Notes under the pieces: model-generated
Told to the model about the DNA's origin: nothing
What the model saw: only the letters and a program-made list of their open reading frames with translations
The model's database searches: none
In this document: one piece after another, positions 30,052 to 45,662 of the stretch
Numbering within the stretch: the first letter of the stretch is position 1
How the letters are laid out: the number at the start of each line of letters is the position of its first letter
Origin: Streptomyces sp. NBC_01478
Lineage (GTDB): Bacteria > Actinomycetota > Actinomycetes > Streptomycetales > Streptomycetaceae
Assembly: GCF_036227225.1 (NCBI RefSeq)
Contig: NZ_CP109444.1
Location: forward strand, 2,647,501-2,711,500
Direction of reading: 5' to 3'
Length of the DNA stretch: 64,000 nt
Program-made: the position numbers and the translations under genes

Positions 30052-30146
30052 CCGGGCGCCGATGCGGCCGGAACGGCCCCGGGGGCGTGAGGACTTAGGC
30101 CCGTCACAGACACGGTGGCGTGACGCGGCCGAAACAGCACCTCCCT

Positions 30147-30170
30147 AATTTCTGTCACCCGACAGGAATT
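30147..30170. promoter_or_regulatory. TetR-type operator in front of the APC permease
   Basis: Near-perfect palindrome: AATTTCTGTC, 4 nt, GACAGGAATT (9 of 10 positions paired), 22 bp upstream of the permease GTG. Its left half with flanking bases (CCTAATTTCTGTC) is identical to the palindrome at 38978 before the urea/guanidine operon. TAATTT inside the left arm reads as a -10 box, so a bound repressor would block RNA polymerase. Confidence 0.85.
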
Positions 30171-30192
30171 CGCGCCGAAGGCAGGTGCCGCC

Positions 30193-31761
30193 GTGACCAC
30201 CACAGCCCCCTCCGACCTACGCCCCGACCCGCCCCACTCCTCCGCCGACGACAGCTCCCTCGAGGAGTTCGGCTACCGTCAGGAGCTGCACCGCAGCCTC
30301 GGCCGGTACGCGTCGTTCGCGGCCGGGTTCTCCTTCATCTCCGTACTGACGACCGTCTTCCAGTTCTTCGCCTTCGGGTACGCGTTCGGCGGCGCCGTCT
30401 TCTTCTGGGCCTGGCCGGTGGTACTGGTCGGCCAGTTGCTGGTGGCCGCGTGCTTCGCGGAACTGGCCGCGCGCTACCCGATCTCGGGCGCGATCTACCA
30501 GTGGTCCTCCCGCCTCTCGAACGCGACGTTCGGCTGGTTCGCGGGCTGGATCATGGTGATCGGCCAGATCGTGGTCGTGGCCGCGGCAGCACTGGCCCTC
30601 CAGATGGTCCTGCCGGCGATCTGGTCGGGCTTCCAACTGGTCGGCAGCGACCCGGCGCCCACCTCACCGGACGGCGCGGCCAACGCGGCGGTCCTCGGCG
30701 TGATCCTGCTGGTCCTGACGACGCTGGTGAACATCCTCGACAACCGCGTGATGTCCGTGATCAACCGGGTCGGGGTGACCGCCGAGATCATCGGCGCGAT
30801 CCTGATCGTCGTCCTCCTCCTGACCCACTCCAAGCGCACCCCGAGCATCACCTTCCACACGACCGGCAGCCTGGAGGGCGGCCTGCTCGGCGCACTGCTG
30901 GTGGGCTCGTTCACGGCGGCGTACGTGATGATCGGCTTCGACAGCGCCGGCGAGATGAGCGAGGAGACCCACAACCCGCGCCGCACCGCGCCCCGCACGA
31001 TCCTCACCGCGCTCAGCGCGGCGGGCCTGCTCGGCGGCCTGATCATCCTCGGCGGCCTGCTCGCCGCACCCAGCATGACCGACGGCCACCTGGGCGTCGA
31101 CGGCCTCAGCTACGTCCTGACGAGCAGCCTCGGCGACGGCGTCGGCAAGGCCCTGCTGGCGGACGTGGTGGTGGCGATAGCGGTAGCAACTCTGGCCATC
31201 CAGACGGCAGCCTGCCGCATGCTCTTCTCGATGGCCCGGGACACCCAACTCCCCTTCTCCGCCCGCCTGTCCAAGGTCAACCCCCGCACGGGCATGCCCA
31301 GCGCCCCCGCCATCGTCGTGGGCGTCCTCGCGGCCGCCCTGCTCCTCCTCAACTTCGCCTCCCCGGACGCGTTCCTCGCCATCGGCACCACCTGCATCGT
31401 GATGCTGTACCTGGCGTACGCGATGGTCACGGGCCCCCTCCTGCTCCGCCGCCTGCGCGGCGAGTTCGAGGTGGCCGGCACGGACGAGACGGGCGCACCC
31501 CTGTTCTCCCTGGGCCGCTGGGGCGTCCCGGTCAACGCGCTGGCGCTCGTCTACGGCCTCGTGATGACGGTCAACCTGGCGTGGCCCCGGGCCGCGGTGT
31601 ACGACCCGGCGGGCGGGCACTGGTACTTCCAGTGGTTCACGGTGTTGTTCCTGGTGGTGACGGTGGGGGTCGGACTCGGGTACCGGGCGGTACGGGCAGG
31701 ACGGGGTGACACGGCTCAGGAACCGGCTGCTGCGGAGGCCCTGCCGGAGCCGACTCGGTAG
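30193..31761 (+). CDS. APC-superfamily permease, probable urea/guanidine-regulon uptake system
   Basis: Transporter of 522 residues with about twelve transmembrane helices. The first is preceded by a cytoplasmic segment (LEEFGYRQELHRSLGRYASF) typical of the APA/ACT branch; the unwound helix-1 region is FAAGFSFISVLTTVFQFFAF. IMVIGQIVVVAAAALALQM and MIGFDSAGEMSEETHNPRR, the latter an APC-family signature, follow. The family moves amino acids, choline or amines, so the substrate is not set by sequence. It shares its operator with the carboxylase operon at 39-45.7 kb, suggesting it imports that pathway's substrate. GTG start; ends in its own hairpin terminator. Confidence 0.88.
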   Translation: MTTTAPSDLRPDPPHSSADDSSLEEFGYRQELHRSLGRYASFAAGFSFISVLTTVFQFFAFGYAFGGAVFFWAWPVVLVGQLLVAACFAELAARYPISGAIYQWSSRLSNATFGWFAGWIMVIGQIVVVAAAALALQMVLPAIWSGFQLVGSDPAPTSPDGAANAAVLGVILLVLTTLVNILDNRVMSVINRVGVTAEIIGAILIVVLLLTHSKRTPSITFHTTGSLEGGLLGALLVGSFTAAYVMIGFDSAGEMSEETHNPRRTAPRTILTALSAAGLLGGLIILGGLLAAPSMTDGHLGVDGLSYVLTSSLGDGVGKALLADVVVAIAVATLAIQTAACRMLFSMARDTQLPFSARLSKVNPRTGMPSAPAIVVGVLAAALLLLNFASPDAFLAIGTTCIVMLYLAYAMVTGPLLLRRLRGEFEVAGTDETGAPLFSLGRWGVPVNALALVYGLVMTVNLAWPRAAVYDPAGGHWYFQWFTVLFLVVTVGVGLGYRAVRAGRGDTAQEPAAAEALPEPTR

Positions 31762-31857
31762 CTAACGGAGAGGGGCCGGCGCTTCCTCGCCCCACGGGCC
31801 CGCCGCGCCCCTCTCCGCCCCCGGGCCGACCCCGGCTCGCCGCAGAGCCCCGACTCT

Positions 31858-31890
31858 CCACGGCTTCCTCGGCGCGCGGAAAAGCCGTGG
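31858..31890 (+). terminator. Terminator after the APC permease
   Basis: 9-bp perfect stem, CCACGGCTT (31858-31866) with AAGCCGTGG (31882-31890), loop of 15 nt, 97 bp past the stop codon. Confidence 0.7.
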
Positions 31891-31925
31891 TGGTGCTCCC
31901 CTGAATGGGGAACCCGGAGGCGGCC

Positions 31926-32408
31926 ATGGACAGTTCGCAGCAGCGCGGGTGGAGCAATAGAACTACGTCACACGGCGGCCCTGACCAGCCGCCGCCGGAG
32001 CGCAATCCATGGCGCCGAGTGCCGTGGTGGCTGTACGTCATCGGCGCGTTCACGGTGATCGTGGTGGTCTCCGTCGTCACGAATCCGTCGTCCTCGTCCA
32101 AGCCGTCGCCCTCGGTCACCGTGACGGAGACGGAGACGAAGGTGACGACCGGGCCGACCGTCACCTCCACCAGGACGATCGAAGAGACCGTACCGGCCGA
32201 GCACACGACCGAACCGTCGAAGCCGACCAAACACTCCGTCGAGCCGGCGAAACCGGCCGCGTCCACGGACACCGGATACGCGTACTACAAGGACTGCGAC
32301 GCCGCCCGGGCCGCAGGCGCCGCGCCGCTTCACCGAGGCGACCCCGGGTACCGGTCCGAGCTGGACCGGGACGGAGACGGCGTCGCCTGCGAGCCGTACA
32401 ACGGGTGA
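31926..32408 (+). CDS. Membrane-anchored excalibur calcium-binding protein
   Basis: Protein of 160 residues. A cytoplasmic N-terminus (about 1-33) precedes one transmembrane helix (WWLYVIGAFTVIVVVSVV). A long Thr/Ser/Pro/Glu-rich stalk (about 55-112) follows, then a C-terminal excalibur domain with YAYYKDCDAARAAGAAP and the metal loop DRDGDGVACE. The domain is outside the membrane and probably binds calcium through the Asp-x-Asp-x-Asp-Gly loop; its cellular role is unknown. ATG at 31926 has GGAGG 6 nt upstream. Confidence 0.9.
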   Translation: MDSSQQRGWSNRTTSHGGPDQPPPERNPWRRVPWWLYVIGAFTVIVVVSVVTNPSSSSKPSPSVTVTETETKVTTGPTVTSTRTIEETVPAEHTTEPSKPTKHSVEPAKPAASTDTGYAYYKDCDAARAAGAAPLHRGDPGYRSELDRDGDGVACEPYNG

Positions 32409-32444
32409 CTGCCGCGCCCCACCCACCACCTACCCTTGACCCCA

Positions 32445-33392
32445 ATGACCCGAAAGCGCCGTATCCCGCCCTCCCCCCTCCCCCAACGCGACGGGGTAGA
32501 CCCAGTGCGGGTCCGCCTGCCCCCCGAGGATTCCTGGGCCACCGTGCGTGAGTACCTGGTGGACCGGCTCTCGGGGGCGGGTGACGGCGTCGTCGATCAG
32601 ATGGTGGACGACGGGCTGATCGTCGGGGTGGACGGGAAGTCCGTGGCCGGGAGGTCGTACGAAGCCGGGATGTTCGTGTGGTTCCACCGGGAGCTGCCCG
32701 GTGAGGTCCCGGTGCCCTTTCCCGTGGAGGTCGTGTACCGGGACGAGCACATCGTCGTCGCCGACAAGCCGCACTTCCTCGCCACCACCCCGCGCGGCAG
32801 TCACGTCGTCGAGACGGCACTCGCGCGGCTGCGCAGGGAGTTGGGCATCCCGGCGCTGGGGGCCGCGCACCGGCTCGACCGGCTCACCGCGGGGCTCGTG
32901 CTGTTCACGGTGCGGCCCGAGGAACGGGGCGCGTACCAGGCGCTGTTCCGGGAGAAGCGGGTGCGGAAGGAGTACGAGGCCGTCGCGCCGTACGACTCCG
33001 GGCTCACCCTTCCGACCATCGTGCGTTCCCGGATTCTCAAGGAGCGTGGGGTGATGGCCGCCCGGCAGGTCGAGGGGGAGGTCAACGCCGTCAGCCGGGT
33101 TGAGCTGGTCGAGGAGCGGGGGGGCGGGCTCGCCCGGTACCGGCTGGTGCCCAGTACCGGGCAGACGCATCAACTGCGCGTCCACATGAGCGCGTTGGGC
33201 GTGCCCATCCTCGGCGACCCGCTCTACCCCGTGGTGACCGACCCCGTGCCGGACGGCGACTTCCGGCGGCCGCTCCAACTGCTGGCGCGGGCACTGGAGT
33301 TCACCGATCCGGTCACGGGCGTCGAGCACCGGTTCCGTAGCGGCCGGGTGCTCGAAGCATGGTCCTGCTACGGCGACTGGGCCACTCAGTAG
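32445..33392 (+). CDS. RluA-family RNA pseudouridine synthase
   Basis: Enzyme of 315 residues converting uridine to pseudouridine in rRNA or tRNA. The catalytic Asp lies in HRLDRLTAGLVLF; VVADKPHFLATTP, the KEYEAV strand and TGQTHQLRVHMSALGVPILG are further family motifs. The N-terminal part (about 20-80) resembles an S4-like domain. ATG 32445 is chosen over a TTG at 32436; a TACCCT box about 10 nt upstream suggests a leaderless transcript. The stop overlaps the convergent P450 gene by 7 nt. Confidence 0.9.
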   Translation: MTRKRRIPPSPLPQRDGVDPVRVRLPPEDSWATVREYLVDRLSGAGDGVVDQMVDDGLIVGVDGKSVAGRSYEAGMFVWFHRELPGEVPVPFPVEVVYRDEHIVVADKPHFLATTPRGSHVVETALARLRRELGIPALGAAHRLDRLTAGLVLFTVRPEERGAYQALFREKRVRKEYEAVAPYDSGLTLPTIVRSRILKERGVMAARQVEGEVNAVSRVELVEERGGGLARYRLVPSTGQTHQLRVHMSALGVPILGDPLYPVVTDPVPDGDFRRPLQLLARALEFTDPVTGVEHRFRSGRVLEAWSCYGDWATQ

Positions 33393-34870
33393 CCCCGCCA
33401 CCACCTCAAGAGCCGCTGCCACGCGCCCAGTTGGTGCACCGGCTCCGGCGTCGCCACCGGCTGGGGCGGAGCGGTCGGCTCGGGCACCGGAACCGCCGCC
33501 GGTGTCGGGTCCGGGTCGGGCGTCATGCCGACGTGCCAGGTGTGGCGGGGTTGCGGGACCGCCGCGTGGCCGGGCTTGACCGACACGTCCTGCTTCGGCT
33601 TCGGGGCGAACTGCACCGGGAGTTCCACCAGATGACGGGAGGCGATGGACGCCGTCCAGCTCAACTCGTCCTCGTCGCAGTCGAGTTCGATGTCCGGCAG
33701 CCGCATCAGCAGCGCGTCCACCCCGGTGTCGGCGATGGCGCGGCCGATGTCCTGGCCGGGGCACTCGTGCGGGCCGCCGCCGAAGGCCAGGTGGGAGCGG
33801 TTGCCCATCATGTTGGCCTTGAGGTCGGGGCGTACGCGGGGGTCCACGTTGCCCGGCGCCGGTGCGAAGAGCAGGCCGTCGCCCTTGCGGATGCGCTGGC
33901 CGCCCAACTCCGTGTCCTGCTTGGCGAAGTAGGCGAACACGGTGGAGAACGGCGGCTCGTCCCACAGGGACTGCTCGACCGCCTCCGGCACCGTCATCTG
34001 CCCGCCGTTGAGCTGCGCGCGGAAGCGCGGGTCGGTGATGACCATGCGCAGCGCGTTGGCGAGGAGGTTGGTGGTGGCCTCGTAGGCGGCGAAGAGGACC
34101 AGCCGCAGGTGCTCGCGGACCTCGTCGTCGCTGAGCCCCGCCGGGTGGGCGAGGAGGTGGCTGGTGAAGTCGTCCGCGGGCTGGGCCCGGCGCAGCACGG
34201 TGAGCCGGCTCAGCGCGTCCATGACGTACTGGTGGCTGACGATCGCGGTCGCGGTGCCCTTGAGGGCGTCGCGGGCCGCCTCCACCATCTGCTCGTTGTA
34301 CTCGTCGGCCATGCCGAGGATCTCGCACAGCACGGCCATCGGCAGGTGCTCGCAGAACTGGCCGACGAGTTCCGCGTGCCCCTGTTCGCAGAAGGTGTTG
34401 GCGAGGATCTGGGTGTAGCGGTTGATGTGCCGGCGGATGCCGCGCGGGTCGATGGTCGACATGGCGCCGGTCACCGCGCCGCGCAGCCGCAGGTGTTCGT
34501 CGCCCTCGGCGTGCGAGGCGATGGGCTGCCAGGCGATGTGCGGCATCAGCGGGTGGTCGGGTTTGACCATGCCCTCGCGCAGCGGCGTCCAGATGCGACT
34601 GTCCCGGCTGAACTGCGAGGGCGTGCGCACCATGTGCAGGTTCTCGGTGTGGCCCAGGACGACCCAGATCGGCACGTCGTCGTGGAGCAACACCGGTGCC
34701 ACGGCGCCGTGTTCGGCACGGAGTTTCTCGTAGAGGGCGCCCAGGTCCGCCGCTTCGGGGCCGAACAGCCGGTGCAGTCCCCCGGGCCCCTGGCCGTGTG
34801 CGGGGCAGCCGGGTGGCGGACCGAGCCTGGTGTCGTCCGTATCGGTCGGGGAGTGAGGTTCAGGCGTCAC
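33386..34870 (-). CDS. rarE: Conservon cytochrome P450 lacking ExxR (RarE/CvnE type)
   Basis: P450 of 494 residues. Heme ligand Cys370 lies in FGGGPHECPGQDIG and the I-helix oxygen site in FAAYEATTNL. The K-helix, normally ExxR before the Asp/Glu-Pro-Pro, reads EQSLWDEPP at 299-307, so both Glu and Arg are replaced. This matches the CYP157 family, known to lack ExxR; S. coelicolor CYP157C1 has, as I recall, the same EQSLW. After residue about 430 there is a Pro-rich tail ending WQRLLRWWRGY. Last gene of the kinase-roadblock-DUF742-GTPase-P450 conservon, 52 bp after the GTPase. Substrate unknown. Confidence 0.93.
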   Translation of the reverse strand: MTPEPHSPTDTDDTRLGPPPGCPAHGQGPGGLHRLFGPEAADLGALYEKLRAEHGAVAPVLLHDDVPIWVVLGHTENLHMVRTPSQFSRDSRIWTPLREGMVKPDHPLMPHIAWQPIASHAEGDEHLRLRGAVTGAMSTIDPRGIRRHINRYTQILANTFCEQGHAELVGQFCEHLPMAVLCEILGMADEYNEQMVEAARDALKGTATAIVSHQYVMDALSRLTVLRRAQPADDFTSHLLAHPAGLSDDEVREHLRLVLFAAYEATTNLLANALRMVITDPRFRAQLNGGQMTVPEAVEQSLWDEPPFSTVFAYFAKQDTELGGQRIRKGDGLLFAPAPGNVDPRVRPDLKANMMGNRSHLAFGGGPHECPGQDIGRAIADTGVDALLMRLPDIELDCDEDELSWTASIASRHLVELPVQFAPKPKQDVSVKPGHAAVPQPRHTWHVGMTPDPDPTPAAVPVPEPTAPPQPVATPEPVHQLGAWQRLLRWWRGY

Positions 34871-34922
34871 AGTGATCGCTCCGAATACTGAAGTGGATCC
34901 GGTGTCAGGGGAGTTGGGCGGG

Positions 34923-35543
34923 TCAGGTCAGCGAGCCCGTCATCGCGAGGGAGTGCAGGAAGCGCATCAGGGTCATCAGGACGTCCCGGCTGGAGGCGCG
35001 GCGGCGCGCGTCGCATTCGATGATGGGGATGTCCGGGGACAGGTCGAGCGCCGTACGCAGGTCCTCGATGGGGTAATGGGGGCCGTCCGGGAAGGAGTTG
35101 ACGGCGATCACGAACGGCACCCCGCGCTCCTCCAGCCGTCCTATGACGTCGAAGCTGACTTCGAGGCGCCGGGTGTCGATCAGCACCACCGCGCCGAGGG
35201 CACCCTCGAACAGCCCGTTCCACAGGAACCAGAAGCGTTCCTGGCCCGGGGTGCCGAACAGGTACAGCACCAGTTGGTCGGTGATGCTGATGCGGCCAAA
35301 GTCCATCGCGACGGTGGTGGCCGTCTTGCTCTCCGAGCCGTAGTTGTCGTCGACGCCGACGCCGGCCTGCGTCATGGTCTCCTCGGTGGTCAGCGGCCTG
35401 ATCTCGCTGACCGAACCGACCATGGTCGTCTTGCCGACCCCGAAGCCGCCGACGATCACGATCTTCACCGCGGCCTGGGCCGTGTGCGGGAGATGGTCCT
35501 CGGTCCGCGGACCCGTGATGGTGTCAGAGCTTTTGAAGTCCAT
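34923..35543 (-). CDS. rarD: Conservon small GTPase (CvnD/RarD)
   Basis: MglA/Ras-like GTPase of 206 residues: P-loop GGFGVGKTT with Lys38, a switch I Thr in the TTEETMTQAG region, G3-like FGTPGQERF, and G4-type AVNSF in place of NKxD, as usual in this family. It is the last of the four core conservon proteins and overlaps the DUF742 gene by 20 nt. Homologues in S. coelicolor act as a G-protein-like membrane complex affecting aerial mycelium formation. Confidence 0.93.
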   Translation of the reverse strand: MDFKSSDTITGPRTEDHLPHTAQAAVKIVIVGGFGVGKTTMVGSVSEIRPLTTEETMTQAGVGVDDNYGSESKTATTVAMDFGRISITDQLVLYLFGTPGQERFWFLWNGLFEGALGAVVLIDTRRLEVSFDVIGRLEERGVPFVIAVNSFPDGPHYPIEDLRTALDLSPDIPIIECDARRRASSRDVLMTLMRFLHSLAMTGSLT

Positions 35544-35949
35544 GCATCACCGCTTCGAGGAGGGAACGGTCGGGGAGCGCCTGGCGGACGATCGGGGCGC
35601 GCGCCTGGACCAGTTCGGCCGTCAGCAGCTCGGTGAGCAGGACGGTCACCACGCTGTACGGCAGGTTGAGATAGGCCGACAGCTCGGCCACGGACAGGGG
35701 GGCGATACAGAGCCCGAGCAGCGTCGCCTGTTCGGGGGTGGCCGACTGCGGCGCGTCGGAACGCGCCACGATCAGCGTGACCAGGTCGAGTTCGGCCCGG
35801 TCGCCGTCCTCGGTCGCGCCGGTGAGCACGTACAGCCGCTCCGGGATCTTCCCTTCGCCCTGTTTCCTGGCGGGCTCGCCCGGTTTTTTCGCGGGCTCGG
35901 GCGGCGGTTCTCCCTTGGGATGTCGCCGCTGGCGTTGCGGAGGAGTCAT
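35524..35949 (-). CDS. rarC: Conservon DUF742 protein (CvnC/RarC)
   Basis: Protein of 141 residues. A charged N-terminus (PKGEPPPEPAKKPG) precedes the DUF742 winged-helix-like domain: RLYVLTGATEDGDRAELDLV, then LCIAPLSVAELSAYLNLPYS and LLEAVMHGLQKL. The frame extends upstream over the roadblock gene; the ATG at 35949, overlapping that gene's stop as ATGA, is the natural start. Function within the conservon complex is not defined. Confidence 0.92.
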   Translation of the reverse strand: MTPPQRQRRHPKGEPPPEPAKKPGEPARKQGEGKIPERLYVLTGATEDGDRAELDLVTLIVARSDAPQSATPEQATLLGLCIAPLSVAELSAYLNLPYSVVTVLLTELLTAELVQARAPIVRQALPDRSLLEAVMHGLQKL

Positions 35950-36353
35950 ACGGTCTGCCCGTTGCGCCTCGGCGGGCTGGTGAGGTGGGCGCCGATTCTG
36001 ACGACGAGGTCGCGCATGCGGTTGCTCATCAGGCCGGGTTCGGCGACCACGTCGGACAGGACGGCCAGATAGGCGTTGGCGCCCGCGGCCATCAGATAGA
36101 AGTAGCCGCCGTTGATCTCGATGATGACCATCTTCATCCGGCCGTCGCTGCCCGGGATCTCGGAGGCGACGGCGCCCGCCAGGCTCTGCAGTCCGGCGCA
36201 GGCCGCGGCGACGCGGTCGGCGGCGTCCGGGTCGCCGCCGTAGCGGGCGATGCGCAGCCCGTCGGCGGAGAGCACGACGATCTGCTGGATGCCGGGCACG
36301 CCGTCGGCGAGATCCTTGAGCATCCAGTCGAAGTTGGCGCGCTGCTGGATCAC
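35946..36353 (-). CDS. rarB: Conservon roadblock/LC7 protein (CvnB/RarB)
   Basis: Roadblock/LC7 (MglB-like) protein of 135 residues: FDWMLKDLADGVPGIQQIVV, then VLSADGLRIARYG, and the strand MVIIEINGGYFYLMAAG. Such proteins dimerise and regulate the partner GTPase, here RarD. The GTG start overlaps the kinase stop (GTGA) and its stop overlaps the DUF742 ATG, so expression is tightly coupled. Confidence 0.94.
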   Translation of the reverse strand: MIQQRANFDWMLKDLADGVPGIQQIVVLSADGLRIARYGGDPDAADRVAAACAGLQSLAGAVASEIPGSDGRMKMVIIEINGGYFYLMAAGANAYLAVLSDVVAEPGLMSNRMRDLVVRIGAHLTSPPRRNGQTV

Positions 36354-37936
36354 TTGAGGTCCCCCTCGTCGTCGGCCTCGACACGGGCCGGCTCGGTCTT
36401 CTGGGTGAAAGCGGTCGGGTCCGGGTCACCCTTGAGGCCTTCCATGAACGCCTCGACCCACAGGCCCGGTTCGGGTTCGTCCTTCTTCTCCGGCTCGGGC
36501 TCGGGCGTACCCCAGGCGGAGCGGGCCTCCCGCGCGGCGGCCTCGGCGCGCTCGGCGGCGGCCTGTTCGGCGTACCGCTGGGCGAGCGGGACCTTGACCC
36601 GGCTGCGGCGCTGCGGCAGGCCGCCCGCCGTCCACTCGGTGACCTCGGGAACCTCGTCCTCCATGCTCACCGAGGCCGGGATGCGCGGGCTCGTGGGGCG
36701 GCGCCGCTTGATCGTGCGCTTGGGGCCGTCGACCGCGCCGAGTTCGGCCTTGGGCATGGCGGTGGCGCCGATGCCGTGGGCGAGTCCGGGTGCGGTGCCG
36801 GGGGTGAGCATCTCGCTGGGCACGATGAGGACGGCGCGGACGCCGCCGTAGGCCGAGGCACGCAGCGAGATCTGCATGTTGTACGTCGCGCAGAGCCGGC
36901 CGACGACCTGGAGGCCCAGGCGCGGGCTCTCGCCGAGGTCCTGGAGGTCGGTGCCGGCCTTGGCGCGCTCCAGCATGCCCTCGGCGCGGGCCCGGGACTC
37001 CTCGCTGAGGCTGACGCCGCCGTCCTCGATCTCGATGGCGACGCCGGTCTGCACCTCTACGGCGGTGACGTGGACCTTGGTCTGCGGGGGCGAGTAGCGG
37101 GTGGCGTTGTCGAGGAGTTCGGCCGCCGCGTGGATGACCGGCTCGACGGAGATGCCGCGGATGTTGACCTTGGCGATGGAGTGCAGCTCGATGCGCCGGT
37201 ACTCCAGGATGCGGGACATGGCGCCGCGCAACACGCTGTACAGCGGCACCGGTTCGGGCCACTGGCGGCCGGGGCGGCCACCGCCGAGCACCGAGATGGA
37301 GTCGGCGAGCCGGCCGATCAGCGCGGTGCCGTGGTCGATGCGCAGGAGGTCGTCGAAGACCTCGGGGTTGCGGCCGTGGTCCTCCTCCATCTCCCGGAGT
37401 TCCTTGGCCTGTTGGTGGACGATGGCCTGCACACGGCGGGCGATGCTGACGAAGGAACGCTGCGCGGAGTCACGCATGTTCTCCTCGCGCTGCACGATGT
37501 TGAGCACGGTCCTCAGCAAGTCGCGCTGCGGCTCGGGAAGTTGCCGCCAGTCGGGATCGGCGTCCACGACTTGGCGAATCACCTCTCCGGGGGATTCTCC
37601 GCTGCTGAGCCGGTAGAGCGTGGCGGGCAGGATCTCCTTGCCGAGGCGGACCGTCTCCAGGTTCTGGTCGGCGATCCGCCGTTCCAGATACGCGGTGTGA
37701 CGGTCGTGCTCGGCGCGCAGGTTCCGCAGGTTGCGTCCGCGGCGTACCGCTTCGGCCGCCGTCACGATCACCAGGAGTGTGGCGACGGCGCCGCACCAGC
37801 CGACGGCGATCCGGGCCGGCCCCGCCACCAGGGCGACGGCGGCCCCGGTCGCCGCGGCCATCACTATGGCAGGCGGCAACAGCACGCGCGCGTAGGGAAG
37901 TTCACGGCCACCGGGAGGCGATTGAACACTCACCAT
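36350..37936 (-). CDS. rarA: Conservon membrane histidine kinase-like protein (CvnA/RarA)
   Basis: Protein of 528 residues with two N-terminal transmembrane helices (LLPPAIVMAAATGAAVALVA and CGAVATLLVIVTAAEAV) and a short loop. A coiled helical region follows, then a HATPase domain with AAELLDNATRYSPPQTKV (N box) and EIEDGGVSLSEESRARAEGM. The canonical H box is missing: the helix before the ATPase has SFVSIARRVQAIVHQQAKEL, so autophosphorylation may not occur. A disordered tail of about 110 residues follows. ATG 37936 has AGAGGG upstream and is preferred over the longer frame. First gene of the rar-type operon. Confidence 0.92.
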   Translation of the reverse strand: MVSVQSPPGGRELPYARVLLPPAIVMAAATGAAVALVAGPARIAVGWCGAVATLLVIVTAAEAVRRGRNLRNLRAEHDRHTAYLERRIADQNLETVRLGKEILPATLYRLSSGESPGEVIRQVVDADPDWRQLPEPQRDLLRTVLNIVQREENMRDSAQRSFVSIARRVQAIVHQQAKELREMEEDHGRNPEVFDDLLRIDHGTALIGRLADSISVLGGGRPGRQWPEPVPLYSVLRGAMSRILEYRRIELHSIAKVNIRGISVEPVIHAAAELLDNATRYSPPQTKVHVTAVEVQTGVAIEIEDGGVSLSEESRARAEGMLERAKAGTDLQDLGESPRLGLQVVGRLCATYNMQISLRASAYGGVRAVLIVPSEMLTPGTAPGLAHGIGATAMPKAELGAVDGPKRTIKRRRPTSPRIPASVSMEDEVPEVTEWTAGGLPQRRSRVKVPLAQRYAEQAAAERAEAAAREARSAWGTPEPEPEKKDEPEPGLWVEAFMEGLKGDPDPTAFTQKTEPARVEADDEGDLK

Positions 37937-38200
37937 GTATGCCCTCTGAAGACAGGTCGGCTGGGGGGACGGGGAGAAGCCGGGGGGAGCTTCTGTATCT
38001 TTTGGCATGTTTGGGAACAAGCGCACGAATACAGCCCAACTCGGTGCGCTGCGGGCGAGCTTAGTCCGACCGGATCACCGCTGTGTCATATTCGGCAAGG
38101 CCCTGAAAAGGGACATGCGAGAGGAGTACCCTCAGTCCATTTACACGCTCCGCTTCCATTCGAACACATTGCGTAGCGAAAAATGGACATGCGAAAGTCA

Positions 38201-38218
38201 CTCACCGTAACGGGTGAG
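38201..38218 (-). terminator. Short hairpin after the TetR gene
   Basis: CTCACC (38201-38206) pairs with GGTGAG (38213-38218) with a 6-nt loop, 3 bp past the TetR stop; TTTC follows on the minus strand. The rest of the 284 bp up to the kinase start is comparatively AT-rich, with GGACATGCGA repeated directly at 38111 and 38185. It probably contains the rar promoter. Confidence 0.5.
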
Positions 38219-38220
38219 GT

Positions 38221-38856
38221 TCAGCTTCCGGCGATCCGCAGCGCGGCGTCGGCCGTCGCCTCCGCGAAGGCGGACACGGGCCGCTCCGGGTCGGAACGAT
38301 GGACGAGAATGACGCCCTCGATCAGCCCGAACACCAGATCCGTGCGCAGCTCCAGCTCGCTCTTGGCGAGCGCCCCGCCGGCGGCCGTCGCGGCGAGCAA
38401 CTGCCGGTAGGCGTCCTTGAGTTCGGCGCGTACGGCATGGAAGCCGGCGAAGCGTTCGGCGCGCACCTCGGGCAGCAGATAGAGCCCGCCGAGGTTGTGC
38501 GAACCGCCGCACAGCAGCTCGACGTCGGTACGGCACAGCTCCCACAACCGGCCCTCGGCCGGGGTCGCGTCGTCCGCGAGCAGCTCCCGGGCACAGGCCA
38601 GCGAGGGCGTGACCGTGGACTCCAGGAGGTCCGCGAGCAGCTCCTCCTTGCCGGAGACGTAGTGGTACATCGACGCCTGCCGCATGCCCGCGCGCTCGGC
38701 GACGGCCCGCGTGGTGGTGGCCGCGTAGCCGCGGGTGGTGAACAACTCGGCGGCGGCACGCAGCAGTTCGTCACGCGGGGACAGTCCGCTGTCCGGCCGC
38801 TGATCGGCCCGCGGCCGGCCGACCCGACGGCCCCCCTGCGCACCCGTTGTCCCCAT
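38221..38856 (-). CDS. TetR-family regulator of the urea/guanidine regulon
   Basis: Repressor of 211 residues. HTH at about 25-70: RDELLRAAAELFTTRGYAAT, then TTRAVAERAGMRQASMYHYV with SGKEELLADLL. The C-terminal ligand/dimer domain includes WELCRTDVELLCGGSHN. The frame runs on to 39099, but the ATG at 38856 with a GAGG site is the sensible start. It is divergent from the DUF1989-carboxylase-allophanate hydrolase operon, with a perfect palindrome in the 185 bp between, repeated before the APC permease at 30.1 kb. Simplest model: it represses all three units and is released by urea, guanidine or a derivative. Confidence 0.9.
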   Translation of the reverse strand: MGTTGAQGGRRVGRPRADQRPDSGLSPRDELLRAAAELFTTRGYAATTTRAVAERAGMRQASMYHYVSGKEELLADLLESTVTPSLACARELLADDATPAEGRLWELCRTDVELLCGGSHNLGGLYLLPEVRAERFAGFHAVRAELKDAYRQLLAATAAGGALAKSELELRTDLVFGLIEGVILVHRSDPERPVSAFAEATADAALRIAGS

Positions 38857-38977
38857 GCGTTCGATCCTCGCACACAGCCCCGCACACCGGATGCCCGGCG
38901 AACCACCGGCGATCTTCGTGAGGGCTCGGTAACCGAGCGGCAACACCCGGGCAACTCCGTCGACCCGACCGCCTCCT

Positions 38978-39001
38978 AATTTCTGTCGAGCGACAGAAAT
39001 G
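38978..39001. promoter_or_regulatory. TetR-type operator of the urea/guanidine operon
   Basis: Perfect palindrome ATTTCTGTC, 4 nt (GAGC), GACAGAAAT, 41 bp upstream of the first DUF1989 gene and between it and the TetR gene. The half site CCTAATTTCTGTC is identical to that at the APC permease. TAATTT again overlaps as a possible -10. Confidence 0.88.
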
Positions 39002-39041: not shown

Positions 39042-39866
39042 ATGGCGACAGCGACCACTTACGGAGCCCGCGCCCATGCCCGCGCCCAGGAGGGCACACG
39101 GGCCGAGTCCATGCCCGTCGTCCCGGCCGCCGACTGGCCGGCCCCGCCCTGCGAGGCGGGCCACCTGGTGTGGGCCGAGACGGTCGCGGGCGGCAACTAC
39201 ACGCACCGCGTCCTGGCCCGCGGCACCGAACTCCGCCTGACCGACCTGCGCGGCGACGCCTGCGCCCATCTGCTCCTGTACGCGGCCGACCGCCCCTGGG
39301 AGCGCCTGAACGTCGCCGACACGGTCAAGGTCCAGTGGAACGCCTACCTCGGCGAGGGCCAGCTCCTCCTCTCCGACCAGGGCCGCGTCCTCGCCTCCCT
39401 GGTCGCCGACACCTCCGGCCGGCACGACGCCCTGTGCGGGACCTCCACCCTCGCCCGCAACACCGAGCGCTACGGCGACGGCACCCCGCAGTCCGACTCC
39501 CCCGCCGGCCGCGAGCTGTTCAAACTGGCCGCCGCCAAGAACGGCCTGGAGCCCCGCGACCTGCCACCGTCCCTCTCCTTCTTCCAGGGCGTCGAGGTCC
39601 GCGACGACGGCTCCCTCGACTTCACCGGCTCGACCGGCCCCGGCGGCAGCGTGACCCTGCGCGCCGAGCAGGACGTGACCGTACTGATCGCGAACGTGCC
39701 CCACCCGGTCGACCCGCGCGACGACTACGTCAGCACCCCGCTGGAGGTGCTGGCCTGGCGCGCCGAGGCCACCGGTCCGGGCGACCCGCTGTGGGAGGCG
39801 ACGCCCGAAGGCCGCCGCGCCTTCCTCAACACCACCGAATTCCTTGCCGCGAGGGGGCTCATATGA
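39042..39866 (+). CDS. DUF1989 urea carboxylase-associated protein 1 / carboxyguanidine deiminase subunit
   Basis: Protein of 274 residues of the DUF1989 family. Core strands include GTELRLTDLRGDACAHLLLY and EGQLLLSDQGRVLASLVADT, with HDALCGTSTLARNTERYGDG. These were long called urea amidolyase-associated proteins; homologues (CgdA/CgdB) are now known to form carboxyguanidine deiminase, which converts carboxyguanidine to allophanate. It is the larger, first-encoded subunit, and lacks the NPCNG cysteine motif of its partner. ATG with AGG upstream; the stop overlaps the next start as ATGA. Confidence 0.87.
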   Translation: MATATTYGARAHARAQEGTRAESMPVVPAADWPAPPCEAGHLVWAETVAGGNYTHRVLARGTELRLTDLRGDACAHLLLYAADRPWERLNVADTVKVQWNAYLGEGQLLLSDQGRVLASLVADTSGRHDALCGTSTLARNTERYGDGTPQSDSPAGRELFKLAAAKNGLEPRDLPPSLSFFQGVEVRDDGSLDFTGSTGPGGSVTLRAEQDVTVLIANVPHPVDPRDDYVSTPLEVLAWRAEATGPGDPLWEATPEGRRAFLNTTEFLAARGLI

Positions 39867-40483
39867 AGACCGCGACCGTCCCGGCGCGCGCCGCCTGGTC
39901 CACCGTCGTCCGCACGGGCGAGACCCTCACCATCACCGACCTGCACGGCAACCAGGCCGTCGACTTCCTCGTCTACGACGCCCACGACACGTCGGTCCGC
40001 TACAGCGCCCCCGACACCATCCACGCCCAGGGCAACCTCTTCCTCACCACCGGCAGCGTGCTGATGTCCAACGAGCACACTCCGCTGATGACCGTCACCG
40101 CCGACGAGGTCGGCCGGCACGACACGGTCGGCGGCGCCTGCTCCAAGGAGTCCAACACCCTGCGCTACGGCCATCACACGTGGTCGCAGCACGCGTGCGT
40201 GGACAACTTCCTCGCCGAGGGCGCCAAGTACGGCCTGGGCAAACGGGACTTGGTCTCCAACATCAACTGGTACATGAACGTGCCGGTCGAGAAGGACGGC
40301 ACCCTCGGCATCGTCGACGGCCTCTCCGCCCCGGGCCTGAAACTGACCCTGCGCGCCGACCGCGACGTCCTGGTCCTGGTCTCCAACTGCCCCCAGATCA
40401 ACAACCCTTGCAACGGCTTCGAGCCGACGGCCGTGGAGATGACGATCGTTGAGGCGGCCGCCGCCCAAGGGGACGCGGCATGA
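39863..40483 (+). CDS. DUF1989 urea carboxylase-associated protein 2 / carboxyguanidine deiminase subunit
   Basis: Protein of 206 residues, paralogous to the previous one: TITDLHGNQAVDFLVYDAHD, then GSVLMSNEHTPLMTV and HDTVGGACSKESNTLRYG. Unlike its partner it has Cys in GGACSKE and again in NCPQINNPCNGFEP, so it may carry the catalytic or metal site of a heteromeric deiminase. The start overlaps the upstream stop and its stop overlaps the carboxylase ATG, which fits stoichiometric synthesis. Confidence 0.87.
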   Translation: MKTATVPARAAWSTVVRTGETLTITDLHGNQAVDFLVYDAHDTSVRYSAPDTIHAQGNLFLTTGSVLMSNEHTPLMTVTADEVGRHDTVGGACSKESNTLRYGHHTWSQHACVDNFLAEGAKYGLGKRDLVSNINWYMNVPVEKDGTLGIVDGLSAPGLKLTLRADRDVLVLVSNCPQINNPCNGFEPTAVEMTIVEAAAAQGDAA

Positions 40484-43400
40484 CCTTCGACACGCTGCTG
40501 ATCGCCAACCGGGGCGAGATCGCCGTCCGCATCATCCGCACCGCCCGCGAACTCGGCCTGCGCACGGTCGCCGTGTACTCCGACGCCGACCGCTCGGCAC
40601 CCCACGTACGGCTCGCCGACGAGGCGGTACGGCTCGGCCCGGCACCGGCCAAAGAGTCGTACCTGGACGCCGACCTGGTGCTCAAGGCGGCGAAGGACAC
40701 CGGCGCGGGCGCGATCCACCCCGGCTACGGCTTCCTCTCCGAGGACGCGGCCTTCGCCCGCCGCTGCGAGGACGCCGGGATCGTGTTCGTCGGCCCGACG
40801 CCCGCCCAACTGGAACTGTTCGGCGCCAAACACACCGCACGGGCGGCAGCCGAAGCGGCGAACGTCCAACTGGCGCCGGGAACCGGCCTGTTGGCAGACC
40901 TGACCGAGGCACTCGCCCAGGCCACGCTCATCGGCTACCCCCTCATGCTCAAGGCGACCGGCGGAGGCGGCGGTATCGGCATGTCGGCATGTCGCTCCGC
41001 CGACGAACTGACCGAGTCCTGGGAGCGGGTGCAGCGCGTAGCCGCCGCCTCCTTCTCCTCGGCCGGTGTCTTCCTGGAACGCCTCGTCGAGCACGCCCGC
41101 CATGTCGAGGTACAGGTCTTCGGCGACGGCGAGGGCAGGGTCGTCACCTTCGGCGACCGCGACTGCTCCCTCCAGCGCCGCAACCAGAAGGTGGTGGAGG
41201 AGGCCCCCGCCCCGGGCCTGCCCGATGCCATCCGCACCCAACTGGCCGCCTCCGCACGCGACTTGTGCGCCTCGGTCGGCTACCGCTCCGCCGGAACCGT
41301 CGAGTTCGTCTACGACGCCGCCCGCGAGGAGGCCTACTTCCTGGAGGTCAACACCCGTCTCCAGGTGGAACATCCGGTCACCGAGGAGATCTACGGCGTC
41401 GACCTGGTCGCCTGGATGCTGCGCCTGGCCCGCGGCGAGACCGACGTCGTGAGCGAACCCGGCACCCCGCGCGGCCACGCCGTCGAGGCCCGCGTCTACG
41501 CCGAGGACCCGTCCCGCGAACACCGGCCCAGCGCGGGCCTGTTGACCCGGGTCGAGTTCCCGCAGGGGGTGCGCGTCGACGGCTGGGTGGAGACGGGCAC
41601 CGAGGTGACGACGTCGTACGACCCGATGCTCGCGAAGGTCATCGCGTACGGCTCCGACCGCGCCCACGCGCTCCAGCGGCTCGACGAGGCGCTGGCCCGC
41701 ACCCGCGTGGACGGCATCGAGACGAACCTCGGCCTGGTCCGGGCGGCGCTCGCGGAGCCGGACTTCCGTACGGCCACCCACTCCACGGCGACCCTCGCCG
41801 GCGTCACCGACCCCACTTCCCGCATCGAGATCGTCGCGGGCGGCACCCTCACCACGGTCCAGGACTGGCCGGGCCGCACCGGCTACTGGCAGGTCGGCGT
41901 GCCTCCGTGCGGCCCGATGGACGACCTCTCCTTCCGCCTCGGCAACCGCGCGCTCGGCAACGAGGAGGGCACGCCCGGCCTCGAATGCACCCTCCAGGGA
42001 CCGACGTTGAGGTTCACCCACGCCACCACCGTGTGCGTGACGGGCGCCCCGGCACCGGTGACGGTCGACGGCACCCCGGTCCCGCAATGGGAGCCGGTGA
42101 CGGTGCCCGCGGGCGCGGTCCTGGAGATCGGCGCCCCGGCCCAACACGGCCTGCGCACCTACGTGTTGTTCGCGGGCGGCCTGGCCGTACCCGCCTTCCT
42201 GGGCAGCGCGAGCACCTTCACCCTGGGCCGCTTCGGCGGCCACGGCGGCCGGGCGCTGCGCACCGGTGACGTCCTGCACGGCGGCACGGTCACCGAGGGC
42301 ACGCCGGTGCCACCCGCCGACCGCCCGGCCCTCGGCGCCGTATGGGAGGTGGCGGCGGTCGAAGGGCCGCACGCGGCACCGGAGTTCTTCACCGAGGACG
42401 ACATCCACGACTTCTACGCGGCCGACTGGAAAGTCCACTTCAACTCGGCGCGCACCGGCGTCCGGCTGGTCGGCCCGAAGCCCCGCTGGGCCCGCACCGA
42501 CGGTGGCGAGGCGGGCCTGCACCCGTCCAACATCCACGACACCCCGTACTCGGTCGGCGCCGTCGACTACACGGGCGACATGCCGGTCCTGCTCGGCCCG
42601 GACGGCCCGTCCCTCGGCGGCTTCGTCTGCCCGGCGACGGTCATCAGCCAAGAGCGCTGGAAACTGGGCCAGTTCAGGCCGGGCGACACGGTCCGCTTCG
42701 TCCCGGTGAACGTCGACGGCTCGCCCCGCCCCGACATCGTGGACGGCGGAATCCTTGCCCGGGACGGAGACGTCACCTTCCGCCGCAGCGGCGACGACAA
42801 CCTCCTGGTCGAATTCGGCCCCATGCAACTGGACTTGGCGCAGCGCATGCGGGTCCACGCCCTGATGGAGGCGGTCGCCGAGGCCGACTTCGAAGGCGTC
42901 ACGGACCTCACCCCCGGCATCCGCTCCCTCCAGATCCAGACGGACCCGACCCGCCTCCCCCAATCCCAACTCCTCACCTCCGTACGGGAGATAGCGGCGG
43001 CACTCCCGCCCACCGACCAACTCATCGTCCCCTCCCGCACGGTCCACCTCCCCCTCTCCTGGGACGACCCGGCCACCCGCGAGGCCATCGCCCGCTATAT
43101 GGCCGGCGTTCGCGACGACGCCCCCTGGTGCCCCTGGAACATCGAGTTCATCCGCCGCGTCAACGGCCTGGACTCGGTCGAGGACGTCTACGGCACGGTC
43201 TTCGACGCCGAATACCTCGTACTCGGCCTGGGAGACGTCTACTTGGGCGCCCCGGTGGCCACACCACTCGACCCCCGACACCGCCTGGTGACGACGAAGT
43301 ACAACCCGGCCCGCACCTGGACGGCCGAGAACTCGGTCGGCATCGGCGGGGCATACCTCTGCATCTACGGCATGGAGGGCCCCGGCGGCTACCAGTTCGT

Positions 43401-43989
43401 GGGCCGTACGACCCAGGTGTGGTCGGGCTGGCAGCAGCGCGGCGCGTTCGAGCAGGGCTCCCCCTGGCTCCTTCGCTTCTTCGACCGCATCAAGTGGTAC
43501 CCGGTGGAGCCGGACGAACTCCTGGAACTCCGGGCCGACATCATCTCCGGCCGCTTCGTCCCGCGCATCGAGGAGGGCACGTTCTCGCTCGCCGAGTACG
43601 AGGCGTTCCTCGCCGAACACGCCGAGTCCATCGGAGAGTTCAGGTCCCGCCAGCAGACCGCGTTCGGCGCGGAACGCGATGCCTGGGAGGCGGCGGGCGA
43701 GTTCACCCGCGCTGAGGCGGCAGCGGCCCCGGCACCACCTCAGGCCGAGGTGACGATCCCGGCGGGCGGCCGCCTGGTGGAGGCCGAATTCGCGGCGTCC
43801 GTCTGGCAGTTGAACGTGGAGCCGGGCGACGAGGTGACGGCCGGCCAACCCCTCCTGGCCCTGGAGGCGATGAAAATGGAATCCAGGGTGCACGCCCCGA
43901 TGGCAGGCGTGGTGACCGAGATCCTGGCCAGGCCGGGCGACCAGGTGGAAGCGGGAACGGCGCTGCTCGTCCTCGCCCCCGCAAGCTGA
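40480..43989 (+). CDS. Biotin-dependent urea/guanidine carboxylase
   Basis: Single-chain carboxylase of 1169 residues. Biotin carboxylase at 1-445 (LIANRGEIAVRIIRTARELG, ATP-grasp loop GGGGIGM, HARHVEVQVFGDG, EVNTRLQVEHPVTEEIYG). The carboxyltransferase region is at about 450-1090, with the AHS1/AHS2-type halves (PGRTGYWQVGVPPCGPMDD; HPSNIHDTPYS). The biotinyl domain at the end has acceptor Lys1132 in LEAMKMESR. Residue 696 is Asp in GAVDYTGD where, as I recall, eukaryotic urea carboxylases have Asn that binds urea; Asp favours guanidine. Product is N-carboxyurea or carboxyguanidine, passed to the neighbours. Needs BirA biotinylation from elsewhere. Confidence 0.94.
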   Translation: MTFDTLLIANRGEIAVRIIRTARELGLRTVAVYSDADRSAPHVRLADEAVRLGPAPAKESYLDADLVLKAAKDTGAGAIHPGYGFLSEDAAFARRCEDAGIVFVGPTPAQLELFGAKHTARAAAEAANVQLAPGTGLLADLTEALAQATLIGYPLMLKATGGGGGIGMSACRSADELTESWERVQRVAAASFSSAGVFLERLVEHARHVEVQVFGDGEGRVVTFGDRDCSLQRRNQKVVEEAPAPGLPDAIRTQLAASARDLCASVGYRSAGTVEFVYDAAREEAYFLEVNTRLQVEHPVTEEIYGVDLVAWMLRLARGETDVVSEPGTPRGHAVEARVYAEDPSREHRPSAGLLTRVEFPQGVRVDGWVETGTEVTTSYDPMLAKVIAYGSDRAHALQRLDEALARTRVDGIETNLGLVRAALAEPDFRTATHSTATLAGVTDPTSRIEIVAGGTLTTVQDWPGRTGYWQVGVPPCGPMDDLSFRLGNRALGNEEGTPGLECTLQGPTLRFTHATTVCVTGAPAPVTVDGTPVPQWEPVTVPAGAVLEIGAPAQHGLRTYVLFAGGLAVPAFLGSASTFTLGRFGGHGGRALRTGDVLHGGTVTEGTPVPPADRPALGAVWEVAAVEGPHAAPEFFTEDDIHDFYAADWKVHFNSARTGVRLVGPKPRWARTDGGEAGLHPSNIHDTPYSVGAVDYTGDMPVLLGPDGPSLGGFVCPATVISQERWKLGQFRPGDTVRFVPVNVDGSPRPDIVDGGILARDGDVTFRRSGDDNLLVEFGPMQLDLAQRMRVHALMEAVAEADFEGVTDLTPGIRSLQIQTDPTRLPQSQLLTSVREIAAALPPTDQLIVPSRTVHLPLSWDDPATREAIARYMAGVRDDAPWCPWNIEFIRRVNGLDSVEDVYGTVFDAEYLVLGLGDVYLGAPVATPLDPRHRLVTTKYNPARTWTAENSVGIGGAYLCIYGMEGPGGYQFVGRTTQVWSGWQQRGAFEQGSPWLLRFFDRIKWYPVEPDELLELRADIISGRFVPRIEEGTFSLAEYEAFLAEHAESIGEFRSRQQTAFGAERDAWEAAGEFTRAEAAAAPAPPQAEVTIPAGGRLVEAEFAASVWQLNVEPGDEVTAGQPLLALEAMKMESRVHAPMAGVVTEILARPGDQVEAGTALLVLAPAS

Positions 43990-44009: not shown

Positions 44010-45662
44010 ATGTCGATGACCGTGTCCCGAGTCCGCGCCGCCTACGCCCGCATCGAGGCAGTGGACCGCCCCGAGATCTGGATCGACCTGCGCCCGCAGC
44101 CGGAGGTCGAGCAAGAGGCACAGGCCCTGGACGAACGACTGTCGGCGGGCGAGCAACTCCCGCTCGCGGGCCGCCTGTTCGCGGCGAAGGGCAACATAGA
44201 CGTCCAGGGCCTCCCGACGACGGCGGGCTGCCCGTCGTACGCCTACGAACCGGAGACCGACGCCCCGGTGGTGGCCCGTCTCCGCGCGGCCGGCGCGATC
44301 GTGCTCGGCACGACGAACCTCGACCAGTTCGCCACGGGCCTGGTCGGCACCCGCTCCCCCTACGGCGCGGTCCGCAACGCCCACGACCCGGCGCGGATCA
44401 GCGGCGGCTCCAGCGCCGGTTCGGCCGTCGCCGTGGCCCTGGGCATCGTCGACTTCGCCCTCGGCACGGACACGGCGGGCTCGGGCCGGGTGCCCGCCGC
44501 CTTCAACGGCATCGTCGGCCTCAAGCCCACCAAGGGCCTGGTCCCCACGGAGGGCGTGGTCCCGGCCTGCGCCTCGATCGACTGCGTGACGGTCTTCGCC
44601 CGCACCCTCCCGGAGGCGGAGCAGGCCCTGTCCTTCATGGCCTCTCCACCGGACCGGGACCTCCCGCCCCTCCCCCAGCGCGCGCCGGGCCCGTGGCGCG
44701 TCGCGGTGGCGGCACGGGACGACCTGGGCGAGCTGGACGAGGGCTGGGCGGAGGCGTACGACGCGGCGGTGGAGCGGCTCAGGGGCGCGGGCGCCGAGAT
44801 CCGCACCCTGGACCTCACCCCCTTCACCGAGGCGGCGGCGATGCTCTACCAGGGGGCGTTCGTGGCCGAGCGCTACACAGCGGTAGGAGCCTTTGTCGAC
44901 AAGGCGATCGCATCCGGCTCGGAGGACCTGGACCCCACGGTCGCGGGCATCATCACCCGAGCCCGAGACATCCCGGCCCACCAGTTGTACGCGGACCAGG
45001 ACCGCCTGGACGCCCTACGAGCCCGGGCCCTCGCCGAACTGGCCGACGCGGACGCCCTGTTGCTCCCGACGACCCCGGGTCACCCGACCCTGGCCGAGGT
45101 GGCCGCCGACCCCCTGGGCGCAAACGCCCGCCTGGGCCGCTTCACCAACTCCACGAACCTCTTCGACCTGGCAGCGGTGGCAGTCCCGTCGGGCGAGGTG
45201 AACGGACTCCCCTTCGGCGTGATGCTGATCGGCCCGGCATTCACGGACGACCGCCTGGCGCAGATCTCCCGCGACCTGAACCCGGAGACCTACATCGCCG
45301 TAGTCGGCGCCCACCTGACGGGCCAGCCCCTGAACCCCCAACTCCTGTCCCTGGGAGCTCACTTGGACCGCACGACCACAACGGCCCCGGTCTACCGCCT
45401 ACACACCCTCGCCACGACCCCGCCGAAGCCGGGCTTGGTGCGCGTGGGCGAGGGAGGGGCATCGATCGAGGCAGAAGTATGGCGCCTACCGGCAGAGGGC
45501 TTGGGCCGCCTACTGACCGCACTCCCCCGCCCAATGACCTTGGGCAGCGTGGAGTTGACAGACGGCACAAGCGTCCCGGGCTTCCTCTGCGAGCCAGGTG
45601 CGCTGTCCAACGCCGAGGACATCACAAGCTACGGCGGCTGGCGAAACTACATGAGCTCTTGA
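44010..45662 (+). CDS. atzF: Allophanate hydrolase
   Basis: Amidase-signature enzyme of 550 residues hydrolysing allophanate to ammonia and CO2. The catalytic triad is Lys60 (AAKGNIDVQG), Ser134 (GGSSAGSAV) and Ser158 (TDTAGSGRVPA); the spacings of 74 and 24 equal those of AtzF as I remember. The C-terminal domain at about 430-550 (VVGAHLTGQPLNPQL and FLCEPGALSNAEDIT) is the AtzF/DUR1-type decarboxylating domain. It is the last gene, 20 bp after the carboxylase, with AAGGAG before the ATG. It finishes the pathway whichever nitrogen compound enters. Confidence 0.94.
   Translation: MSMTVSRVRAAYARIEAVDRPEIWIDLRPQPEVEQEAQALDERLSAGEQLPLAGRLFAAKGNIDVQGLPTTAGCPSYAYEPETDAPVVARLRAAGAIVLGTTNLDQFATGLVGTRSPYGAVRNAHDPARISGGSSAGSAVAVALGIVDFALGTDTAGSGRVPAAFNGIVGLKPTKGLVPTEGVVPACASIDCVTVFARTLPEAEQALSFMASPPDRDLPPLPQRAPGPWRVAVAARDDLGELDEGWAEAYDAAVERLRGAGAEIRTLDLTPFTEAAAMLYQGAFVAERYTAVGAFVDKAIASGSEDLDPTVAGIITRARDIPAHQLYADQDRLDALRARALAELADADALLLPTTPGHPTLAEVAADPLGANARLGRFTNSTNLFDLAAVAVPSGEVNGLPFGVMLIGPAFTDDRLAQISRDLNPETYIAVVGAHLTGQPLNPQLLSLGAHLDRTTTTAPVYRLHTLATTPPKPGLVRVGEGGASIEAEVWRLPAEGLGRLLTALPRPMTLGSVELTDGTSVPGFLCEPGALSNAEDITSYGGWRNYMSS

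Follow-up and report, generated by a model that had tools for sequence, protein, structure and literature searches.

The 64-kb window analysed here (the whole stretch of DNA under study) comes from the 12,124,816-base genome of the soil Streptomyces sp. NBC_01478 and holds the genes of a putative nitrogen regulon, together with a pair of predicted operators for its TetR-family repressor, AmtR. The amtR gene (38221..38856, minus strand) is divergent from a four-gene operon on the plus strand, which encodes two DUF1989 proteins of the carboxyguanidine deiminase type, UAAP1 (39042..39866; PF09347, with TIGR03425 above cut-off) and UAAP2 (39863..40483; PF09347, with TIGR03424 above cut-off), a biotin-dependent carboxylase carrying the Asp pair of guanidine carboxylases (40480..43989; TIGR02712 above cut-off) and an allophanate hydrolase made up of amidase and AH_C domains (44010..45662; PF01425 and PF21986, with TIGR02713 above cut-off). 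An APC-superfamily permease, a putative guanidine importer (30193..31761, plus strand; PF13520, E 5.6e-39), has its own promoter 8.8 kb away.

The predicted AmtR operator of the permease lies at 30147..30170 and that of the operon at 38978..39001, between amtR and UAAP1, neither being assigned to a strand. Scanning the window for AATTTCTGTC-N4-GACAGRAAT returned these two copies, both of which agree fully with AATTTCTGTCNNNNGACAGRAAT (30147-30169 and 38978-39000); no such site occurred in 100 dinucleotide-preserving shuffles of the window, so that none is expected by chance. The two sites have the half-site CCTAATTTCTGTC in common and differ in their N4 centres (ACCC versus GAGC). They are separated by 22 bp from the GTG of the permease (30193) and by 40 bp from the ATG of UAAP1 (39042), with the start codons chosen by us. 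Over all 12,124,816 bases, ATTTCTGTC-N4-GACAGAAAT at up to three mismatches was found at the window pair (one and zero mismatches) and at one other position, 6814348, and at up to one mismatch the 12.1-Mb genome contained only the two window sites. The original prediction had placed one site on the permease side and one in the gap between the TetR and DUF1989 genes, with an identical half-site and no third copy. Both sites and their common half were indeed found there, and the absence of a third copy holds in practice, because the only extra match is a single asymmetric site with three mismatches.

We rejected the match at 6814348 as a third operator on account of this asymmetry and its three mismatches. 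It belongs to an element with a fixed centre, ATTTCTGTC-TCAG-GAYGGAAAC (L003:1501-1522), which lies upstream of a lipoprotein-like frame in the NBC_01478 genome, also occurs in two other genomes (L124 and L125, from G024 and G121) and is probably not an AmtR site.

Each operator overlaps a TAATTT hexamer (30146..30151 at the permease and 38977..38982 at the operon, both on the plus strand), part of a flank that is conserved in orthologs and the likely -10 element. Immediately upstream, arrays of GlnR-type repeats at 11-bp steps can be read on the plus strand, GTGAG-GGCCC-GACAC-GTGAC-GAAAC before the permease (30087..30136) and GTGAG-GTAAC-GCAAC-GCAAC-GACCC before the operon (38918..38966). Both arrays begin with GTGAG, and the last repeat stops 10 bp before TAATTT at each promoter. 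In the region upstream of the operator, the two promoters are identical at 30 of 61 bases without gaps, as against a maximum of 26 at shifts of 1-30, the best of which is 11. One box in each array, GTGAC-n6-GAAACA (30120-30136) and GTAAC-n6-GCAACA (38929-38945), fits the GlnR motif Gn2AC-n6-GnAACA, as given in PMC3662644 and tabulated in PMC10704036. Stricter matches to GTNAC-n6-GNAAC occur three times on both strands of the 64 kb (15309, 30120 and 38929), two of them at these promoters; the remaining one, at 15309, is a third GlnR-type box of the window. Among the promoters of orthologs, the strict form occurs at 31 of the 44 that precede a permease (in register at 28) and at 37 of the 46 that precede an operon (in register at all 37). 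Each promoter therefore carries a candidate GlnR site.

The TetR protein has a TetR_N domain (PF00440, E 1.2e-15), and its best solved relative is PDB entry 5e57, 'Transcription regulator AmtR' (E 2.1e-36), which we take to be the M. smegmatis protein. Six PDB sequences were retrieved at E<=1e-20, three named AmtR (5e57, 5mqq and 6gy3) and three named 'TetR family transcriptional regulator' (5dxz, 5dy0 and 5dy1), the latter presumably C. glutamicum AmtR. By its TetR-type helix-turn-helix and its closest kinship, both judged from sequence, the product of 38221-38856 is an AmtR. The original prediction was right in calling the regulator a TetR, and left its AmtR identity and the GlnR-type boxes unrecognised.

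In order to follow the operator across the genus, we surveyed 199 Streptomyces genomes, including that of NBC_01478, counting sites at up to two mismatches. The site was present in 50 genomes; the backwards-read motif, used as a control, matched in one (G034). A close operon, defined by a UAAP1 ortholog at >=76% identity, was found in 46 genomes by comparing listings by hand, and all 46 have the site, versus 4 of the 153 genomes that lack such an operon (single sites in G046, G054 and G074, and a site preceding the permease in G138). We also fetched 74 stretches, most of them around the TetR gene and some around survey sites, and marked genes by tblastn matches. At up to three mismatches, the operator lies near the start of all 44 permease orthologs (43 loci plus the window, with loci L118, L119 and L120 chosen because of their site) and of all 46 UAAP1 orthologs (45 loci plus the window). 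A permease at >=70% identity occurs in 45 genomes, the 45th being a partial copy in G096 that falls outside the 44. Permease-type sites mostly have GACAGGAA as their right arm and operon-type sites are mostly perfect palindromes, with a variable N4 centre. The pair is thus conserved in the relatives examined that have both genes, and the claim that one TetR regulon joins the permease to the DUF1989/carboxylase operon is supported.

In five loci (L118, L119, L127, L129 and L139) a second, partly decayed operator-like copy can be seen by eye beside the permease site, which suggests local duplication of the site.

For the search outside the genus we used the 5e57 sequence, which led to mycobacterial loci, and kept the best 80 of the 162 loci found, all Mycobacteriales by their titles; 58 hold permease, symporter or UAAP1 genes and the 22 without operon genes were left out. 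Each of the 58 has a stretch at most one mismatch from CTGTC-N4-GACAG no more than 400 bp upstream of one of these permease, symporter or UAAP1 genes, and elsewhere in these loci the core occurs 18 times at this stringency in 886,060 bases. CTRTC-N4-GACAG is found in 48 of the 58 (9 exact matches to the core and 39 copies of CTATC-N4-GACAG). CTGTC-N4-GACAG before target genes is thus the predicted core operator of these AmtR proteins. The same consensus for M. smegmatis AmtR is reportedly given in the abstract of Petridis 2016. The data note of that study (PMC5137332) gives no motif. A phylum-wide search with UAAP1 at E<=1e-60 proved too strict, with hits in 7 of 296 genomes; its loci L231 and L232 joined later comparisons.

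The arrangement of these genes varies. Among the 40 Streptomyces loci with both operators, 11 are compact, with the sites 2.4-4.0 kb apart, and in the other 29 they are 8.2-13.0 kb apart. The permease adjoins amtR in nine of the compact loci, and about 1.8 kb separates them in the other two. Furthermore, in five diverged Streptomyces genomes (UAAP1 57-59% and AmtR 41-45% identical) the permease stands directly before UAAP1, with TACCTGTC-N4-GACAGGTA before the permease in all five, and many Rhodococcus loci have amtR followed by permease-UAAP1-UAAP2-carboxylase, again with a site before the permease. Because the permease heads the operon in these loci, its separate promoter in the window looks like the split of an older single operon. 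The original statement that the permease has no other link to its neighbours is consequently not supported.

Between permease and amtR, the minus strand of the window (32430-38026) carries P450-like, ATP/GTP-binding, DUF742 and HATPase frames, a block that we take to be a conservon. Its frames match in 31 fetched Streptomyces loci (the 29 wide-spaced ones and two without a permease in the stretch) and in none of the 11 compact loci, matches which indicate conservation of the DNA block only, since three of the four frames used were opposite in strand to the likely genes.

We then considered the substrate. Alignment with 3va7/5i8i places an Asp of the carboxylase at the position of Asn1330 in the K. 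lactis enzyme (VDYTGD versus INFTGD), and its Asp919 aligns with K. lactis position 1584 (positions counted by hand). According to PMC11410670, Asp at 1584 is required and Asp at 1330 separates guanidine from urea carboxylases; a preference of the window's carboxylase for guanidine over urea is therefore predicted. The motif was located in 102 fetched loci and was always Asp (47 Streptomyces, 54 Mycobacteriales and L231), not counting three frame matches that fell in other proteins, and Asp was present in 101 of the 101 loci whose carboxylase match reaches the region (112 loci have a carboxylase match). UAAP1 and UAAP2 both belong to DUF1989, as does carboxyguanidine deiminase, and the genome encodes urease separately (PF00449, two strong matches and one weak). 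Given the Asp pair, the deiminase-type pair and the separate urease, we read the regulon as one of guanidine uptake and breakdown, which suggests that what has been called a 'urea' regulon in actinobacteria is one for guanidine. A regulon built in the same way for urea, degraded by urea carboxylase and allophanate hydrolase, would agree with the family names (TIGR02712 urea carboxylase and TIGR03428) and with mycobacterial papers that call MSMEG_2187 a urea amidolyase (PMC4222082, PMC4617892 and PMC3662644). We keep urea as a rival substrate, but consider it quite unlikely: it is disfavoured by the Asp pair, it would presumably have no need of two deiminase-type subunits, the genome already has a urease, and urea had no effect on AmtR binding in M. 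smegmatis (PMC4222082).

Guanidine-dependent control by RNA was also considered. Neither the window nor any of nine related loci gave an Rfam match to a guanidine riboswitch, and guanidine-I was absent from 24 of 24 genomes at E<=0.001. Guanidine-III was found in 18 of the 24, in 16 of them over the cut-off. Riboswitch control of the regulon was rejected, as the guanidine-III of this genome (G000:C1:4609344-4609420, L255) is 1.9 Mb away and the locus gave no match, with guanidine-II and -IV not searched genome-wide. The gene that follows this guanidine-III element is small and, by eye only, SMR exporter-like, with a reading frame interrupted in this strain. At gathering thresholds, Rfam gives a single match in the window, the small RNA Scr1601 (RF02830; 6243-6455, minus strand, 175.8 bits).

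The best family of the permease is NCBIfam TIGR03428, 'permease, urea carboxylase system' (E 2.4e-197). The original prediction argued from shared control that the permease imports the pathway substrate, an argument which the conserved pair of sites supports, but it went too far in placing this assignment beyond the reach of sequence family, given the TIGR03428 match, although below cut-off, and the AmtR regulon already predicted in 2013. The identity of the transporter can also change. In G096 the second operator precedes not an APC permease but a sodium:solute symporter (PF00474, E 4e-26; L103:5213-6757), and six Mycobacteriales loci (L196, L201, L204, L209, L216 and L219) have a relative of this symporter (54-68% identical) placed between amtR and UAAP1, in the direction of the operon in five and opposite to it in L216; PF00474 was checked on three of the seven symporter loci. 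A separate contig of G096 carries an AmtR fragment and a permease that is partial but closer, so that its symporter locus may come from a mixed assembly, but the six Mycobacteriales loci are independent of it. That one operator can precede transporters of two unrelated families argues for a slot that serves import of the pathway substrate.

The permease has amino acid transporters, including several cationic ones, as its nearest solved relatives, and AmtR could control both promoters merely as nitrogen-scavenging co-regulation, with the permease importing another nitrogen source (an amino acid, or a guanidino compound, for instance arginine). We find this unlikely, since the genome has only two sites, the permease heads the operon in relatives and an unrelated symporter can occupy the same slot. 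In addition, the guanidine importers predicted for ammonia oxidisers are APC permeases, and an APC permease and guanidinase were induced by guanidine in one of two treatment plants, the change in the other not being significant (PMC11410670 / PMC12186494).

Taken together, these data make it likely that an importer of guanidine and the guanidine carboxylase pathway are jointly repressed by AmtR and activated by GlnR. We infer that an AmtR dimer would bind the palindrome CTGTC-N4-GACAG at both promoters. As this palindrome overlaps TAATTT, the likely -10 element, the bound dimer would block transcription of the APC permease and of the UAAP1-UAAP2-carboxylase-allophanate hydrolase operon. GlnR would bind the 11-bp-periodic array immediately upstream, whose register is the same at the two promoters, and activate both under nitrogen shortage. 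The imported guanidine would then be converted to ammonia via carboxyguanidine and then allophanate.

Several observations weigh against this model. The permease scores below the curated cut-off of TIGR03428 (656.5 versus 740.45 bits), although it may work like a member without being filed as one, and neither promoter has a consensus -35 element as judged by eye. No permease was found at E<=1e-80 in G044, which does have amtR, the operator and the operon, and in G138, a fragmented assembly, permease and operator are present and amtR and UAAP1 were not found. Ten of the 58 Mycobacteriales loci have only a weaker CTGTC-N4-GARAG, a second site near UAAP1. Moreover, 14 genomes (L085, L089-L100 and L107) keep an AmtR that is 66-79% identical but lack the operon, and in 11 of them no TTCTGTC-N4-GACAGAA site was found at up to one mismatch, although the recognition helix of these orphan proteins is similar. 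The other three (G046, G054 and G073) have one 1-mismatch site each, never beside amtR, those of G046 and G054 lying in homologous DNA. We do not regard the orphan genomes as a refutation, since they have no operon and the comparison of relatives with both genes does not apply to them. The orphan amtR of L089 adjoins a DSHCT/DEAD-box helicase gene.

These orphans, the overlap with the likely -10 and the fact that AmtR binding to the Streptomyces palindrome is a prediction from sequence would all fit a palindrome that serves another regulator or is part of the core promoter. We consider this very improbable, as the two-fold symmetry is kept while the N4 centre varies, in both Streptomyces and Mycobacteriales the core accompanies amtR and the operon, and AmtR bound the M. 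smegmatis permease promoter in electrophoretic mobility shift assays (PMC4222082).

What releases AmtR in this repressor-activator model may be guanidine itself. We tentatively suggest, as a possibility with the odds against it, that outside Corynebacterium AmtR could be a protein sensor of guanidine or carboxylated guanidine, released from CTGTC-N4-GACAG by its ligand, so that a repressor would replace the riboswitch. A hint in this direction is that the regulon here consists only of the importer and guanidine enzymes, and another is that M. smegmatis AmtR did not respond to urea or amino acids. Among 147 operon-linked and orphan AmtRs, the acidic residues D111, E130 and E180 are near-invariant, each being conserved in 146, but by eye they correspond to E, I and M in what we take to be the PII-controlled AmtR of C. 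glutamicum; they could form a cation pocket, but salt bridges would explain them too.

Cis-regulatory evidence from a whole genus thus ties an isolated-looking permease to the use of guanidine, and one repressor site at two promoters would allow importer and probable guanidine-degrading enzymes to switch on together. The AmtR signal, for which urea and amino acids failed, becomes directly testable, and if AmtR does bind guanidine it would be a protein counterpart of guanidine riboswitches. The AmtR circuit itself is already known from related bacteria and TIGR03428 had already pointed to the permease; what look newer are the guanidine reading, the in-register promoter pair and the symporter swapped for the permease behind the same operator. 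'AmtR' and 'guanidine carboxylase' were not found together in the open literature, which leaves out most subscription papers, and the guanidine reading may therefore be in print elsewhere.

The closest known system is the AmtR regulon proposed in 2013 from ten actinobacteria, including S. avermitilis, and tested in M. smegmatis (PMC4222082, on which the following statements rest). As in the window, M. smegmatis has an AmtR-type repressor (MSMEG_4300), whose targets (MSMEG_2184-2189) comprise a permease, two unknown frames beside a carboxylase, the carboxylase and an allophanate hydrolase, with GlnR above. When amtR is lost, transcript levels of permease, carboxylase and hydrolase increase, and these AmtR-repressed genes depend on GlnR for their control by nitrogen. 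Urea and amino acids failed to release the repressor, and guanidine is not named among the effectors tested there. Unlike in the window, amtR is elsewhere in the M. smegmatis genome and the literature speaks of urea metabolism. The regulon predicted for S. avermitilis (permease, urea carboxylase, amidase and amtR; sav6697, 6698, 6701 and 6709) is from the same genus and likewise has amtR opposite in direction and the permease located elsewhere, but it was based on co-occurrence and gene order only, the section on it reporting no operator, GlnR box or guanidine assignment. C. glutamicum AmtR, to which three of the PDB entries above presumably belong, is a homologous TetR-family nitrogen repressor. 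That protein differs in regulating more than 30 genes and in being released by a PII protein (PMC4617892). Finally, the guanidine carboxylase pathway (CgdAB, guanidine carboxylase and allophanate hydrolase) has counterparts in the window for all its enzymes and for the Asp pair, whereas in the enterobacteria reviewed in PMC11410670 / PMC12186494 it is controlled by guanidine-I and -II riboswitches and goes with an ABC importer.

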